Positions 9,003-55,640 of a stretch of 64,000 nucleotides of DNA are shown here, in pieces. Numbering within the stretch: position 1 is the first letter of the stretch; each line of letters opens with the position of its first letter. Source of the DNA: Psychrobacter immobilis (GTDB lineage: Bacteria; Pseudomonadota; Gammaproteobacteria; Pseudomonadales; Moraxellaceae); NCBI RefSeq assembly GCF_904846175.1, contig NZ_CAJGZM010000008.1, positions 1 to 64,000 of the forward strand. The letters are read 5' to 3'. Position numbers and translations under genes: made by a program. Below the pieces are notes generated by a model, which made no database searches, had not been told where the DNA came from, and worked only from the letters and a program-made list of their open reading frames with translations.

Positions 9003-9120
<118 letters not shown>

Positions 9121-15470: not shown

Positions 15471-17306
15471 ATGATGCTAAAAAATACCATGCTAAAAGCC
15501 GTTTTGCTTGCCATTACTATCAGCTGGATACCTGCTAGTATCGCGGCGCCAATCACCACGACTGCGCTTGGGCATAATAGTACCACTGAGTATATTGACG
15601 TGCCATACATGCCCTATGCCAATCCAAAGGCGCCCAAAGGTGGTACGCTTTCACTGGATGCACGCGGTACCTTTAATGCGGCCAATAAATGGATGACCAC
15701 AGGTGTGGCGATGATAGGTACTGATTATCTGTATGATACCTTGATGACGGGTTCCCTCAATGAAGCCTTTACCATGTATCCGCAGCTGGCAAATAAAGTC
15801 ACGTATGATCCCGATGATACCAGTTGGATTATTTACCATATTAATCCTGCCGCGCGCTTTTGGGATGGGACAGCGGTTACCAGTAGTGACGTTAAAGCCA
15901 CTTATGACGCAATATTGAATAAAGGGCCGATGTATATTCGCAGCTATTTGGGTGATATTAAAGACATTCAAGTTCTTGATAAACAACAAGTAAAATTCAT
16001 TTTTAACTCTGATGACAATAAAGAGATTTTATTAACGGTTGGGCAGTTTCCTATTTTTGCTAAGACCTCTATCGATAAGGATTTTGAGAAAATAACGTTG
16101 ACACCGCTGATGGGGAGTGGTCCTTATAAACTTGGGCGCATTGATGCAGGGCGTGCGGTCAGCTATGTGCGTGATCCCAATTATTGGGGTCGTGATTTGA
16201 TAGTCAATCGTGGGCGTTATAATTTTGATATGATTAAGTTTGTCTATTATCAAAGTGATGAGATTGCTTTTGAGGGTTTTAAATCTGGGCAATATCGTTT
16301 CCGCCCGGAGAATAAAGCCTCTAATTGGGCAACAGGTTACAATTTTCCCGCCGTCAAAGCAGGTCTGATTAATAAAGAAACCATAAACAGCGAAAATCCA
16401 GTACCGATGCAAGGTTTGGTGATGAATATGCGCCGGCCAATTTTTCAAGACATTCGTGTCCGCCAAGCCTTGACGGCGGCTTACGATTTTGAATGGATGA
16501 ATAAAACCTTATTCCATGGCCAGTATGAGCGTTTGCAAAGCTTCTTTCATGGTTCCGAGCTTGCTGCTACTGGTACACCATCTGCGGCTGAGATGCAGGT
16601 GTTAAGTCCATTGTTAACCAATCTTGAACCGATTCAGCGCCAAGCAGTATTGACGGAATGGCAATTACCAACCAGTGACGGTAGCGGCTTTAATCGTGGC
16701 GGGTTGTTAAAGGCGCGTCAGCTATTGCTAGATGCGGGTTTTTATTATCAAGATATGAAGTTGTATCAGCCAAACGGCAAGCTTGCTCAAATTGAGATTT
16801 TGATGACAGGTGAGACCATGGGGCGTGTATTGTTGCCTTATATTCGTAATCTAAAGCGTTTGGGCTTTGATGCGACCTTACGTCAAGTCGATGGGCCACA
16901 ATATTACGAGCGCATGCGCCGTTTTGACTATGATATGGTAGTCGATGTCTTCGCCCAAAGTCTATCGCCTGGCGCTGAGCAAGTGGGTTTTTGGGGTAGC
17001 ACCGCCGCTGATGAAGCGGGCAACGCTAATACCATCGGTATTAAAAACCCTGCGATTGACAGTGTTATTAAAAAATTGGGCGACGCTAAAAGTCGCGATG
17101 AGATTGTCTTATATACTCACGTACTTGATCGCCTGCTACGGGCAGGTCATTATTTAGTACCTTTATACGGCAAATCTAGCACCAATGTTGCCTACTGGAA
17201 TCAATATCGGCATACTGCAAAACTGCCGACCAATGCTATCGGTATCGATTATTGGTGGACAGATAAAGAAGCGGAAGCCCGTGTTAATCAATATTTGAAG
17301 CAATAG
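15471..17306 (+). CDS. yejA: YejA-like peptide-binding protein of an ABC importer
   Basis: A 611-residue periplasmic solute-binding protein of family 5 (the OppA/DppA family). The signal peptide spans about residues 1-25 (ending SIAAP). Visible are the family blocks LSLDARGTFNAANKW, ARFWDGTAVTSSDVKATYD and GSGPYKLG, and the C-terminal YWWTDKEAEARV typical of YejA. YejABEF-type systems import oligopeptides such as microcin C-like compounds in E. coli. The gene opens a five-gene set with gloB, yejB, yejE and yejF. The stop codon lies inside the first unit of the 13-bp tandem array at 17301. Confidence 0.9.
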   Translation: MMLKNTMLKAVLLAITISWIPASIAAPITTTALGHNSTTEYIDVPYMPYANPKAPKGGTLSLDARGTFNAANKWMTTGVAMIGTDYLYDTLMTGSLNEAFTMYPQLANKVTYDPDDTSWIIYHINPAARFWDGTAVTSSDVKATYDAILNKGPMYIRSYLGDIKDIQVLDKQQVKFIFNSDDNKEILLTVGQFPIFAKTSIDKDFEKITLTPLMGSGPYKLGRIDAGRAVSYVRDPNYWGRDLIVNRGRYNFDMIKFVYYQSDEIAFEGFKSGQYRFRPENKASNWATGYNFPAVKAGLINKETINSENPVPMQGLVMNMRRPIFQDIRVRQALTAAYDFEWMNKTLFHGQYERLQSFFHGSELAATGTPSAAEMQVLSPLLTNLEPIQRQAVLTEWQLPTSDGSGFNRGGLLKARQLLLDAGFYYQDMKLYQPNGKLAQIEILMTGETMGRVLLPYIRNLKRLGFDATLRQVDGPQYYERMRRFDYDMVVDVFAQSLSPGAEQVGFWGSTAADEAGNANTIGIKNPAIDSVIKKLGDAKSRDEIVLYTHVLDRLLRAGHYLVPLYGKSSTNVAYWNQYRHTAKLPTNAIGIDYWWTDKEAEARVNQYLKQ

Positions 17307-17404
17307 TTTAAGATAATGGCTCCAAACGATCGTTAGAGGCAATAGTTTTAAAAAACAGCTCGAAACAATAATTTATAAAAATGGCTTAAGCCAATAAATG
17401 CAAT
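17301..17404. repeat. Eight degenerate 13-bp tandem units between yejA and gloB
   Basis: Read in steps of 13 from 17301: caatagtttaaga, taatggctccaaa, cgatcgttagagg, caatagttttaaa, aaacagctcgaaa, caataatttataa, aaatggcttaagc, caataaatgcaat. Columns 3 (A) and 8 (T) are invariant and most others have one dominant base. Rotated, the unit is TRGYTT-N7, the same as the array before dnaX at 53438. The array fills most of the yejA-gloB gap. Confidence 0.75.
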
Positions 17405-17485
17405 GACTCTGCATAATTTTTTAGTTGGTTTAAAAATTACATACAAGACATTCGCAATAAAGACAATCACTGCTAAGGACTTTAT

Positions 17486-18265
17486 ATGAGTATTCGTATT
17501 CACCCCATTAAAGCATTTAATGACAATTATATTTGGACATTAATTAATGATAGCAATAAACAGGCGATTGTCATTGATCCGGGTCAAGCTGAGCCAGTTA
17601 TCGCTTATTTAGAAGAAAACGGCTTAGAGCTGACGTCTATCTGGACCACGCATCATCACCATGATCATATCGGCGGTGTTGCCGAGCTACAAGAATCTTA
17701 TCCGATGACGCATCTGGTTGCGCATACAGAGCATAATGTCGATGAAGACCAGACTATCAAAGACGGTAGTACGGTCAGTGCTTGGGGCTGCGCCGCGCAA
17801 GTATGGGATGTCTCAGGACATACTGCCAGTCATGTAGCGTATATCTTGGATATCGATGGACAGAAGCATTGTTTCTGCGGTGATACCTTATTTAGTGCCG
17901 GTTGCGGACGTGTCTTTACCGGCACGATTGAGCAATTGCATGAGAGCTTTAAGCGTTTAAATGGCTTGCCAGCGGAGACGCTGTTGTACCCTGCCCATGA
18001 ATATACTGCCAGCAACCTACACTTTGGTTTATCTATTGAACCTGCGAGTGAAGCGATGCAGCAAGCGATTGCGCAAGCAGAAGAAAAAACCGCCCAAGGT
18101 ATCCCGACATTGCCTGTGACATTAGAGCATGAGCGCGCAATCAATGTGTTTTTGCGTACGCAAGAGCCGAGTGTGATAGCAGGAGTGAAGTCTAAAGTCA
18201 CTATAGACGATGATAAGTCTTTGACAGTGTTTGCCGCGTTACGTGAGCTTAAAAATAACTTCTAA
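17486..18265 (+). CDS. gloB: Hydroxyacylglutathione hydrolase (glyoxalase II)
   Basis: GloB hydrolyses S-lactoylglutathione to lactate and glutathione, the second step of methylglyoxal detoxification. The 259-residue protein has the metallo-beta-lactamase metal motif THHHHDHIGG (H56, H58, D60, H61), the GHTASH block, CGDTLFSAGCGRVFTGT and YPAHEYTASN, and the C-terminal glyoxalase II helical domain. An AAGGA ribosome site is 7 nt upstream. Its position between yejA and yejB is unusual; nothing in its sequence ties it to peptide transport. Confidence 0.96.
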   Translation: MSIRIHPIKAFNDNYIWTLINDSNKQAIVIDPGQAEPVIAYLEENGLELTSIWTTHHHHDHIGGVAELQESYPMTHLVAHTEHNVDEDQTIKDGSTVSAWGCAAQVWDVSGHTASHVAYILDIDGQKHCFCGDTLFSAGCGRVFTGTIEQLHESFKRLNGLPAETLLYPAHEYTASNLHFGLSIEPASEAMQQAIAQAEEKTAQGIPTLPVTLEHERAINVFLRTQEPSVIAGVKSKVTIDDDKSLTVFAALRELKNNF

Positions 18266-51947: not shown

Positions 51948-52061
51948 ACTGCTTTACTTGCCATAAATCCACGCTGGGACTAAACTGAAAATAAGAAGGC
52001 TTTTTCTACTTTTAAAGGAATGGTCTCAAGTTCTTTATGAGACCTTATGTATAGGGATATT

Positions 52062-53423
52062 ATGGACACTCAGCAAGTACCAGCGTCGATTTGGCAGCAG
52101 ATGATTCAGCAGAATTTTTTATCTTTGTACGACTTAACCGCAGACAAAATTACTGACCCTGAGTATCTTCAGGGTTATGATTTTGTTTTTGAGTTTTCTA
52201 ATGCCATGGTTTACCTTATCATCAACGATGTAACGATACAGGCTGATAGGCAGGATATCGATAGTACTCAAGTTCGTACGTGGAGAAAAGAAGTTGTCAA
52301 CCAACTGATTAAGCAACATGCTCAGTTATATCTTAAAAATGATCAGGCGCTTGCTTATAAAAACAAATCTAAAAATGAATCGGCATCTGACACAACAACA
52401 GACAAGGCGATTTATTTTATTGGCTTGACCTCGTTGTCGGTTCAGCATCAAGAGATTGCTGAAAAGAACAGCGCTCAGAAGGGTTATCAAAATAGCTATC
52501 AGAATAGTTATCGTAATAACCATCAGAGCAAGCCCGTAGAAGCCGCCTCTTATGCGGTTGGCTATGAATATGGTAGTCAGTTTTTTGCAGAAGATTGTGT
52601 GCTAGATTTGGACGATGAAGAAAGTGTGCTACAAGTATTTAGCTATCAGAACTTCACTGAGATACTTAAGCAACTGGTAACGCCCAGTGATTTGACGGCA
52701 TTTTTAGATTTCCATCGGCGTAAGCTTGCTGGGTTTGAAGCGTTTCAAGACGAATCATCCTTGCTTGCACAGTTTTTACAGTCGCCAGATTTTCATCAAA
52801 GGGCGATTGAAGTTCAAAAACAACTGGTCAGCCATAACTTGATAGCGCAGATTGAACCACGATTGTTAAAAGCGGCAGAGCCTGAGCAGGCGGAATTTGC
52901 TAAAGCATTGATGGCAGAGATTCAAAAGAATACACGCATGTGGTATCGGCTTTTTAATAGCTTAGTCAGAGAGTGTTATGACGCGGGTACGCCACTGCCA
53001 AAAGAGCAAGTTGATATTTTGGTCGACGAGTCCATGTACACCTATGCTTGTTTGGTAGAAAAAATATTGGCTCACAGAAGCATTGACCAAGATTCTCGGT
53101 GGACGGGCTACGTGCGCCATGAGTATTCTTATAATGTCTTTGGGCGTCATTATCTGCTGGTGTTTTATGCGCAAGATGACAACAGCTCGTTAAGTGCCGA
53201 CAAGGTGCGTGCGGGTCATCAAGATTTATTATTCGAGCTCAATGCCCAAATGCAGCAGCCTGTTATGCAAGATCTGTTTTTAATTGGTGTCGACGTCAGA
53301 CCTTGTGAAGATAGCGTGAATACCGAAGTTCATCTTGACGCATTTCATCAGCATGGCTCGCTTATCGATGCAAATACCCAGCGTTTGTACCAACAGTTGG
53401 CTGAGTTGCGAGCTCAATCATAA
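52062..53423 (+). CDS. Hypothetical protein, 453 residues
   Basis: A large soluble protein I do not recognise. The ATG at 52062 (MDTQQVPAS) has an AGGGAT ribosome site; the frame opens five codons earlier. Residues 1-100 form a mixed alpha/beta region (GYDFVFEFSNAMVYLIINDV), about 100-165 is a Gln/Asn/Ser/Lys-rich linker, and the rest is mostly helical with repeated Leu/Gln-rich segments. A C-terminal strand region (HYLLVFYAQ, DLFLIGVDVRPCED) closes it. No signal peptide or membrane segment. It lies between lysS and dnaX on the same strand; a 13-bp tandem array follows it. Confidence 0.75.
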   Translation: MDTQQVPASIWQQMIQQNFLSLYDLTADKITDPEYLQGYDFVFEFSNAMVYLIINDVTIQADRQDIDSTQVRTWRKEVVNQLIKQHAQLYLKNDQALAYKNKSKNESASDTTTDKAIYFIGLTSLSVQHQEIAEKNSAQKGYQNSYQNSYRNNHQSKPVEAASYAVGYEYGSQFFAEDCVLDLDDEESVLQVFSYQNFTEILKQLVTPSDLTAFLDFHRRKLAGFEAFQDESSLLAQFLQSPDFHQRAIEVQKQLVSHNLIAQIEPRLLKAAEPEQAEFAKALMAEIQKNTRMWYRLFNSLVRECYDAGTPLPKEQVDILVDESMYTYACLVEKILAHRSIDQDSRWTGYVRHEYSYNVFGRHYLLVFYAQDDNSSLSADKVRAGHQDLLFELNAQMQQPVMQDLFLIGVDVRPCEDSVNTEVHLDAFHQHGSLIDANTQRLYQQLAELRAQS

Positions 53424-53437
53424 GCTATCCTAGAAAT

Positions 53438-53528
53438 TAGTTTCAATGCTTGGTTTTAATGCTTAGCTTTAACATTTAGCTTTGCTATTTGGTTTGAATA
53501 ATTGGCTTCGGTATCTGGTTTTAAGGTA
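53438..53528. repeat. Seven degenerate 13-bp tandem units upstream of dnaX
   Basis: Read in steps of 13: tagtttcaatgct, tggttttaatgct, tagctttaacatt, tagctttgctatt, tggtttgaataat, tggcttcggtatc, tggttttaaggta. Position 1 (T), 3 (G), 5 and 6 (T) are invariant, position 2 is A/G and position 4 C/T, giving TRGYTT-N7. It ends 51 bp before the dnaX start. The same rotated unit occurs at 17301-17404. Confidence 0.8.
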
Positions 53529-53579: not shown

Positions 53580-55640
53580 ATGACGCAGCAATATCAAGTT
53601 TTAGCGCGCAAATATCGCCCAAAAAACTTTCACGAGTTGATTGGGCAGTCACACGTCTCACAAGCACTGATTAATGCGATTGATTATAATCGTCTGCATC
53701 ATGCTTATCTATTTACGGGTACGCGCGGTGTTGGTAAGACCACTATTGCACGTATTTTATCTAAATGCCTAAACTGCGATACCGGTATTACCAGCACCCC
53801 ATGTGGCGTCTGTGATAACTGCGTGGCGATTGATCAAGGGCGTTTTATTGATCTAATTGAGATTGATGCTGCCTCTCGTACCAAAGTTGAAGATACTCGT
53901 GAGCTACTTGATAATGTACCTTATGCGCCAAGCCAAGGTCGCTACAAGGTATACCTGATTGATGAAGTGCATATGCTGTCGACGCACAGCTTTAATGCGC
54001 TGCTCAAAACCTTGGAAGAGCCACCTGAGCATGTAAAATTCTTACTAGCCACCACCGATCCGCAAAAGTTGCCGATCACGATTATCTCGCGCTGTTTGCA
54101 GTTTGTGCTGCGTCCTTTATCGCAAAGCTTGCTCAGTGAACACCTAGCCAATATCTTAACCCAAGAGCAAGTTGGCTATACGCAGCCTGCACTTTGGCAG
54201 TTGGCCAGTGCCGCCAAAGGTTCTGTACGTGATGCGTTGTCATTGACCGATCAAGCCATTGCTTTTGGGCAAGGTGCACTCGATGATGTGACGGTCAATG
54301 CCATGCTCGGCTTAATTGATGCGGCTGATTTAGTGCGTTTAATTACAGACATTTATAATCATGATAAATCTGCCGTCGCCGCTCATATTGAGCAGATGCG
54401 TGCGCAAATGGTCGATGCTACTAGCATGTTTGATGGTTTGGCTGAGCTGCTACATCAATTGGCATTGACGCAACTGCTACCTGAGGTTGCCCTTAACGTA
54501 AACGAGGCACAAGCGCAGCAGATTAATCAGCTCGCCCAGCATATGAGCCCTGATGTCTTACAGCTATATTACGAAATCGTGGTACAAGCGCGTGAAGGCG
54601 TCAAACTGGCTAGCACACCGATGCAAGCGCTAGAGATGTGTATTTTACGTCTATTGGCTTTTCGTCCGTTACCCGTCGATGAGATTTTAAAGAACGTACC
54701 TGATACTGCTATATCGTCTGACCCTGTATTATCTGGTTCTATAGCATTAGTAGAAGCCGTTGCTTCTACTAATGCTACGGCTGCATCTAATACAGCATCA
54801 ATAAATACAAATACCGTTGAGGTATCAAATACCAATGCGCTTTTAAATACTAATGCGCATTCAGTATCGGCTTCTTTATCAGTGCCAACCTCAGCAGTAG
54901 TGGAAGCGATATCAGAATCGCAGCCAGAACCACAGTTAAAACCAGCAGCGAAATCAATACCGCCGCTACCAGACTATATTGCTGATTATGACAGCTCAAA
55001 TCAAAATGAGATTGAGTCATACAACACAAACTATGATGATGCTGAATTTGAACAATATAATAGTTACGGCAATGATGAAAGATTAGGTTTGTTAGACAGC
55101 AACGTTAACTCTGAGCCTGTTGTTGAGCCTGAACCTGTTGTTGAGCCTGAGCCTGTTGTTGAGCCTGACGCAAATGATGCTCAATTATTATCCCAGCTTG
55201 ATGACCCGCGTACCCTGTTACGTTGCGCCCCGCAAGAGTTGACGGGCGAATGGACACCAGAAAAATGGGACTATTGGCTGCAATGCGCTCGCGAAGCTGG
55301 TAGTTTGGCTTCAGATGAATTGGCGTTGGCGCGTCAAGGGATGATGACCGGTCACTGTAATGATAAAGCCGTCTTTGTCACGGCAGTCGACAGCAAGCAT
55401 TTGCAAGCCACCTTTCAACAACTCGCGGCAAAATTGCAAGAACAGTTTACGCAAGCGGACATCAGCTTGCAGATAGATGGCAGTGTCATGCAGTCCGATG
55501 ATAAGACCCCTGAGCGCCGCCAACAAAAACGCCTTATAGAAGCCCGTACAGTTGCGGAGTCTAAATTGCTCAATACACCTGTGATGCAATATTTGACGGA
55601 ACGCGGCGAAGGGAAAATGGGTAAGGTTCAGTTATATTAA
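53580..55640 (+). CDS. dnaX: DNA polymerase III tau/gamma subunit
   Basis: DnaX is the clamp-loader ATPase that also tethers the polymerase. From the ATG at 53580 it has 686 residues: Walker A GTRGVGKT at 47-54, a zinc site C66-C75-C78-C81, LIDEVHM, and the sensor region LLATTDPQKLPITIISRC. Domains I-III end near residue 370. A variable Ser/Thr/Asn-rich linker with an EPEPVV repeat (about 512-530) joins to the tau C-terminal domain. An in-frame TTG at 53568 is less likely. No strong ribosome site precedes the start. I saw no A-AAA-AAG slippery site of the E. coli type. Confidence 0.96.
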   Translation: MTQQYQVLARKYRPKNFHELIGQSHVSQALINAIDYNRLHHAYLFTGTRGVGKTTIARILSKCLNCDTGITSTPCGVCDNCVAIDQGRFIDLIEIDAASRTKVEDTRELLDNVPYAPSQGRYKVYLIDEVHMLSTHSFNALLKTLEEPPEHVKFLLATTDPQKLPITIISRCLQFVLRPLSQSLLSEHLANILTQEQVGYTQPALWQLASAAKGSVRDALSLTDQAIAFGQGALDDVTVNAMLGLIDAADLVRLITDIYNHDKSAVAAHIEQMRAQMVDATSMFDGLAELLHQLALTQLLPEVALNVNEAQAQQINQLAQHMSPDVLQLYYEIVVQAREGVKLASTPMQALEMCILRLLAFRPLPVDEILKNVPDTAISSDPVLSGSIALVEAVASTNATAASNTASINTNTVEVSNTNALLNTNAHSVSASLSVPTSAVVEAISESQPEPQLKPAAKSIPPLPDYIADYDSSNQNEIESYNTNYDDAEFEQYNSYGNDERLGLLDSNVNSEPVVEPEPVVEPEPVVEPDANDAQLLSQLDDPRTLLRCAPQELTGEWTPEKWDYWLQCAREAGSLASDELALARQGMMTGHCNDKAVFVTAVDSKHLQATFQQLAAKLQEQFTQADISLQIDGSVMQSDDKTPERRQQKRLIEARTVAESKLLNTPVMQYLTERGEGKMGKVQLY
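55112..55168 (+). repeat. 18-bp coding repeat in the dnaX linker
   Basis: GAGCCTGARCCTGTTGTT-type units encode EPVV-EPEPVV-EPEPVV-EPD. The near-identical codons show recent expansion in the tau linker. Confidence 0.75.

Follow-up and report, generated by a model that had tools for sequence, protein, structure and literature searches.

A 13-bp tandem array between a solute-binding protein gene and gloB in Psychrobacter immobilis is probably a local minisatellite in a genome biased towards 12-16 bp duplications

The spacer upstream of gloB in Psychrobacter immobilis carries a tandem array of seven 13-bp units, which is probably a local, imperfect minisatellite in a genome biased towards tandem duplications of 12-16 bp. 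The array was studied in a window of 64,000 nucleotides, by which we mean the whole stretch of DNA that was analysed (contig NZ_CAJGZM010000008.1, positions 1 to 64,000), taken from an assembly of 3.12 Mb in 28 contigs.

The gene upstream of the array, called yejA in an earlier reading made from the sequence only, encodes an extracellular solute-binding protein of family 5 (15471-17306, forward strand; PF00496, E 7.6e-57), and matches to it were found in 104 of 105 Psychrobacter genomes, the window's own genome included. Downstream lies gloB, encoding hydroxyacylglutathione hydrolase (17486-18265, forward strand; TIGR03413, 313.7 bits against a cut-off of 200.8), whose product is 97% identical to GloB of P. 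okhotskensis. Between them, on the same strand, seven units occupy positions 17304-17394: TAGTTTAAGATAA, TGGCTCCAAACGA, TCGTTAGAGGCAA, TAGTTTTAAAAAA, CAGCTCGAAACAA, TAATTTATAAAAA and TGGCTTAAGCCAA. The first unit opens with the TAG stop codon of the upstream gene (17304-17306), in agreement with the sequence-only reading, which had placed the yejA stop codon inside the first unit of a 13-bp array in this spacer. That array was borne out as well. Pair identity within phase columns gave z 7.3 at period 13 over 17304-17394 and z 6.3 over 17304-17407, all other periods from 5 to 21 gave z of at most 0.5, and the period-13 signal was reached by none of 2000 Markov resamples. When the whole window was scored at period 13, the array ranked second (0.586), after an array upstream of dnaX (0.626) and ahead of the next stretch (0.421). 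The eight units first proposed are better counted as seven. The supposed eighth, TAAATGCAATGAC (17395-17407, forward strand), is read as the 3′ flank of the array, since a similar word stands there in relatives that have 1, 2 or 4 units; across the 20 measured loci such a word comes after 1, 2, 4 or 7 units.

Neighbouring units are strongly diverged, and because adjacent units match each other poorly, the array was detected neither by a plain lag-13 identity scan nor by Tandem Repeats Finder. The units adjoin directly, without unrelated spacers between them, which rules out a CRISPR array. A structured RNA or an intrinsic terminator was likewise rejected: the array had no stable fold (fold z -0.29 and 0.03), no intrinsic terminators were found in it, and it matched no known RNA family, the sole Rfam match of the window at gathering score being a small signal recognition particle RNA at 9013-9109 (70.4 bits). 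A plasmid search for DNA resembling the gloB spacer gave no match. Unit 7 contains a perfect palindrome, TGGCTTAAGCCA, at 17382-17394.

To compare the spacer among relatives, one genome per species was searched. The gloB spacer contains 1, 2, 4 or 7 units in these genomes: seven in the window's genome and likewise in G007 (locus L201), its nearest relative, four in G006 (L212) and about four, with a one-base shift, in three further genomes (L202-L204), and two in two genomes (L205 and L217). A single local copy of the TAATTTAGAACAA type follows the stop codon in 12 of the 20 measured loci. Counted from the stop codon, the next conserved word lay 13, 26, 27, 52, 53 or 91 bases away, which is 0 or 1 modulo 13 in all 20 measured loci, own genome counted. 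These 20 were chosen from 30 loci because the conserved word could be recognised in them by eye, and the anchor patterns were drawn up, also by eye, once the spacers had been viewed, so that the modulo-13 series is not blind; ten loci with diverged spacers (L216, L219, L220 and L222-L228) were left out. Since the spacers hold 1, 2, 4 or 7 units at distances of 0 or 1 modulo 13, the gloB array most likely grew locally, from one copy. One copy being the commonest state, the change would have been a gain of units and not a loss. The window's genome and G007 have equal numbers of units, 7 and 7, at both gloB and dnaX, and so unit number appears to change slowly.

To ask which repeat lengths occur irrespective of sequence, sampled stretches were surveyed for tandem self-similarity without use of a motif, DNA outside open reading frames of at least 100 codons being counted as noncoding. 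In 225 kb from six Psychrobacter genomes, noncoding arrays numbered 20, 20, 18 and 13 at lags 13, 14, 15 and 16, compared with 2, 3, 5 and 4 at lags 9-12 and 8, 5, 1 and 2 at lags 17-20. Lags 13-16 thus hold 71 of the 101 noncoding arrays of lags 9-20 (p 4e-14 against equal shares). One first-order Markov resample each of the noncoding DNA of the window's genome and of genome G080 yielded 1 and 0 arrays, respectively, over lags 5 to 40. The fixed score used here disfavours short lags and favours those of 14 or more. This bias is reduced by a lag-scaled rule requiring 85% identity over the full unit, under which arrays at lags 12-16 and at lags 18-30 numbered 32 versus 4 in the window's genome, 45 versus 12 in G080 (chosen for its many hits to the dnaX-array model described below, so that its 13-bp class may be inflated), 12 versus 1 in four other Psychrobacter genomes, 25 versus 3 in genus g7, and 6 versus 9 in Vibrionaceae and others. 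The excess under this rule spans 12-16 bp and fades above 17-18 bp. The units of the 12-16 bp arrays found without a motif look unrelated to each other.

The density of noncoding arrays at lags 13-16 differed between lineages. Per 100 kb of noncoding DNA there were 41.6 in the window's genome, 36.6 in G080, 12.5 in the four other Psychrobacter genomes and 14.8 in the gloB region of 38 Psychrobacter loci, as well as 49.3 in g7 (two genomes of the same family), 7.0 in g10 (two genomes) and 9.8 in a control of 42 mostly Vibrio loci (L039-L080). The values for the four other Psychrobacter genomes and for the gloB region lie near that of the control. With a stricter score the gloB region showed almost no peak, with 5 arrays at the four lags 13-16 and 7 at eight neighbouring lags. 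No arrays at lags 13-16 were found in an E. coli control with only 9.3 kb of noncoding DNA, in samples of four genomes of the family (G114, 10.2 kb noncoding; G116, 6.1 kb; G105, 5.5 kb; G126, 4.9 kb) or in samples of four genomes of the class (G174, 14.0 kb; G159, 2.0 kb; G154, 3.5 kb; G165, 5.7 kb); these family and class samples are small and mostly GC-richer, and the computed GC of 0.14 for G126 probably results from many N. The pattern is thus pronounced in certain lineages, whereas elsewhere it is faint or missing. Among the best-ranked matches of a literature search, at the level of titles and the first lines of abstracts, there was no report of 12-16 bp tandem duplications in bacteria or of 13-bp arrays in Psychrobacter.

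Genes were affected too. In-frame arrays in coding sequence numbered 8, 10, 21, 31, 15, 7 and 4 at 6, 9, 12, 15, 18, 21 and 24 bp, and a Vibrionaceae-dominated control contained no coding 15-bp arrays (Fisher p 0.018). Comparison of 24 close species pairs gave coding tandem indels of 15 bp in 6 rows (4 loci), with 3 rows at 12 bp, 4 at 6 bp, 1 at 9 bp and 1 at 30 bp. In the same pairs none of 7 noncoding tandem indels measured 13-16 bp, a result which, small as the numbers are, was counted against the bias. A size preference that extends to genes would be unexpected of a sequence-specific binding site and expected of a mutational process.

The other 13-bp array of the window consists of seven units of about TRGYTTYRATRYT at 53438-53528 on the forward strand (z 7.5 at period 13), and precedes dnaX, which encodes the gamma and tau subunits of DNA polymerase III (53580-55640, forward strand; NF005942, 655.6 bits against a cut-off of 613). 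The sequence-only reading held that the gloB array has the same unit as the dnaX array, and this claim failed. A sequence-only model, R1, was built from nine 52-base pieces of dnaX arrays from five genomes, and was run over the window's genome, 105 genomes of the genus and 99 of the class (the window's genome being included in each set), and unfiltered over the window. Because the core of the dnaX unit reads nearly alike backwards, two column-permuted decoys were used in place of a reversed-sequence decoy, and one of these (R2) was also run over the window. R1 matched the dnaX array at 41.9 and 31.2 bits, and gave no match to 17304-17407 at E<=10 with filters off. Unit profiles of the two arrays were then compared in all phases and on both strands, with permuted columns as the null. 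The score was 3.68, and permutation gave a mean of 3.22 (sd 1.23; p 0.32); when 19 other 13-bp arrays were compared with the gloB array, 9 of them outscored the dnaX array. By this measure the units of the two arrays appear no more closely akin than chance allows. They have in common their period and a degenerate, AT-rich start, seen by eye as TRGYTT; an equal period does not by itself make two arrays of one genome related.

The dnaX array begins close to the stop codon of its own upstream gene, which is not the gene found upstream of the gloB array, and it too varies among relatives. Those that have it contain 2 to 8 units, in spacers of 39, 40, 52, 64, 65, 79, 104, 104 and 105 bases, 8 of the 9 lengths being 0 or 1 modulo 13. 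The anchor used for these measurements was present in 12 of 30 loci. Eleven of the 12 measure 0 or 1 modulo 13, a count that includes two loci without an array (L095 and L096, 14 bases) and one of unrelated sequence (L106, 118 bases). Nineteen of the 30 dnaX loci either lacked an array at this position or offered no anchor that could be recognised. Differences in unit number at one locus, which had been suggested as a check on the arrays, were thus seen between species at both gloB and dnaX. Several other features of this region were observed. The open reading frame of 458 residues just before dnaX (52047-53423) matched no Pfam or NCBIfam family at E<=0.001, and the sequence of the region before dnaX differs in some other Psychrobacter. 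Within dnaX, an 18-bp repeat is present in 3.2 copies with 95% matches (55111-55168), and the middle of DnaX, at about residues 400-510, aligns poorly in many relatives. In some species both spacers contain a stretch of approximately 170-200 bp with GGGCGTGTCCTCA and its complement at the ends, resembling a small mobile element without genes; it lies just before gloB in L015, L020, L022-L025 and L031, and before dnaX in L094 and, in part, L102.

Further arrays of the dnaX type were found in the genus, as a profile scan had been expected to show if the arrays had relatives. Searching the 105 Psychrobacter genomes with R1 at E<=0.01 produced 78 rows; when the 11 at dnaX were set aside, 67 matches remained, orthologous copies (for example L139 and L142) being left unmerged, of which 24 had E<=1e-3 and 11 had E<=1e-4. 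The two column-permuted decoys gave 13 and 13 matches over the genus, with 2 and 1 at E<=1e-3. We inspected 23 of the 67 loci, all from other genomes, together with six from the window's genome. Each of the 23 contained about three or more 13-bp units, and they lay mostly in spacers, with a few inside predicted open reading frames (for example L143 and L154). In the window's genome hits besides dnaX were weak (best E 9.4e-4); among the 98 other genomes of the class, 9 gave a hit, and no such hit reached E<=1e-3. Single dnaX-type words were 1.2-1.6 times commoner than permuted words in the noncoding DNA of the window's genome and four other Psychrobacter, which explains part of the excess of dnaX-type arrays. 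The genus-wide excess (67 versus 13 and 13) is nevertheless beyond what a sequence-blind process explains, and in this genus arrays of the dnaX type may form a favoured subclass, to which the gloB array does not belong. Further arrays and conservation at the locus both exist, and it was the lack of both that the sequence-only reading had named as its refutation; of the repeat family proposed from the sequence, the part that stands is the occurrence of further 13-bp arrays in the genus, and the part that does not is the gloB and dnaX arrays as copies with a shared unit.

A single dispersed family with a 13-bp TRGYTT unit is accordingly very improbable as the source of both the gloB and the dnaX array. 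Such a family would fit the common period and degenerate start, and also the R1 matches outside dnaX, which exceed those of the decoys. It was rejected on two tests. The shared-unit test failed because R1 misses the gloB array and the unit profiles are as alike as permuted ones (p 0.32). The empty-site test failed at gloB, where the 13-bp stretch is single and local in 12 of the 20 measured loci, the ten diverged spacers among the 30 standing outside this count. Moreover, no three-unit hits of dnaX type of at least 14 bits were present in 400 kb of the window's genome together with the window when both arrays were masked, and the matches in the genus have to be read against single words of this type that are already commoner than permuted ones. 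We also regard as improbable a role for the arrays as iteron-like sites, kept by selection, at which a DNA- or RNA-binding protein would recognise a 13-bp word. As binding sites might, both arrays occupy spacers flanked by genes of one strand, and dnaX-type units reappear at unrelated places in the genus, but unit number ranges from 1 to 7 at gloB and from 2 to 8 at dnaX, 19 of 30 dnaX loci have no array there or no recognisable anchor, units drift and those of different arrays look unrelated, and a peak of 15-bp arrays in coding frames is not expected of such sites.

Ordinary replication slippage between chance short repeats requires no size preference, and the 12-16 bp peak would then be general in AT-rich bacterial intergenic DNA. 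Slippage accounts for the gain and loss of units once two copies exist. At a lower threshold the control gave 7 arrays at the four lags 13-16 and 4 at eight neighbouring lags, as a general peak predicts, and flanking homology at exact duplications of at least 10 bp was on average above the chance value of about 0.8 (3.6 bases in 21 Psychrobacter cases and 2.0 in 12 g7 cases). At a stricter threshold, however, lags 13-16 and their neighbours held 1 versus 4 arrays in the control, compared with 15 versus 3 in the window's genome and 26 versus 7 in G080. The two g10 genomes, of the same family and with a noncoding GC of 0.36, had 2 arrays at lags 13-16 and 9 at neighbouring lags, and composition alone yields almost no arrays, as the Markov resamples showed. 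Slippage without a size preference is therefore rather unlikely as the whole explanation.

A size-restricted duplication bias, followed by gain and loss of units, is the origin that we consider probable; its molecular step is one that we infer, and the evidence on that step is mixed. According to this proposal a single 13-bp stretch, beginning at the upstream stop codon, would have been duplicated head to tail, and the gloB array would then have been altered by whole units and by the drift of point mutations, as comparison of species suggests. It would be one case of a Psychrobacter bias that generates 12-16 bp repeats from many sequences in noncoding DNA and in-frame steps of 15 bp in genes. 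The size of the unit may be fixed at the initial duplication, by an intermediate of repair or replication that would span about one to one and a half helical turns. An example that would fit is a displaced flap or an excision patch, ligated in next to its newly made copy. Later changes in unit number would be ordinary strand slippage between existing copies. No function is needed to explain the array.

The flanks of exact duplications bear on the first step in both directions. In 18 of the 33 cases (21 from Psychrobacter and 12 from g7) the flanking homology was at most 1 base, which a size-set event allows and slippage between pre-existing short repeats does not predict. Among those with units of 12-17 bp, 10 of 23 had at most 1 base of flanking homology; given this fraction and the mean homology above chance, slippage may feed many first duplications too. 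Ordinary end joining is unlikely, because Ku was not found in 41 genomes of the family, in a search that was positive in 1 of 14 control genomes (Bacillus subtilis). More tentatively, it is possible that a dedicated or unusually active repair step, present in Psychrobacter and in one or more further genera of its family, duplicates about 12-16 bp head to tail, such that spacers and some genes grow stepwise, with words of the TAGTTTTGATA type favoured. Should the size preference be borne out, spacers in this lineage would lengthen in quantised steps, set by a molecular ruler of about 14 bp.

The gloB array resembles bacterial minisatellites (VNTRs) in its head-to-tail units at one place in a spacer (z 7.3 at period 13), and in the whole-unit differences, 1, 2, 4 or 7 at gloB, between related genomes at a fixed position. 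It differs from them in that the units of the Psychrobacter arrays are strongly diverged, the gloB and dnaX arrays do not look hypervariable (7 and 7 units in the nearest relative), and unit size in the sampled stretches comes from the narrow range of 12-16 bp. Borg elements, in the part of the account that we draw on (PMC9879509), likewise contain many independent tandem repeats of differing sequence, in spacers and in frame in genes; the Borg repeats described there are perfect and the Psychrobacter ones imperfect, and the example units of 18-21 nt lie where Psychrobacter sizes have fallen off, above 17-18 bp. Small tandem duplications at DNA breaks in animal cells also duplicate a short stretch locally, but the animal route, as set out in the portion of that source used here (PMC8355091), ends in non-homologous end joining, whereas Ku was not found in the 41 genomes of the Psychrobacter family.

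Two arrays of different unit can be neighbours. In a spacer of G080 (L182:14644-14881), an array with the 13-bp unit ATTAAAACAAAGC is followed by one with the 14-bp unit AAGCTCTTAAATAA, which shifts to 15 bp.
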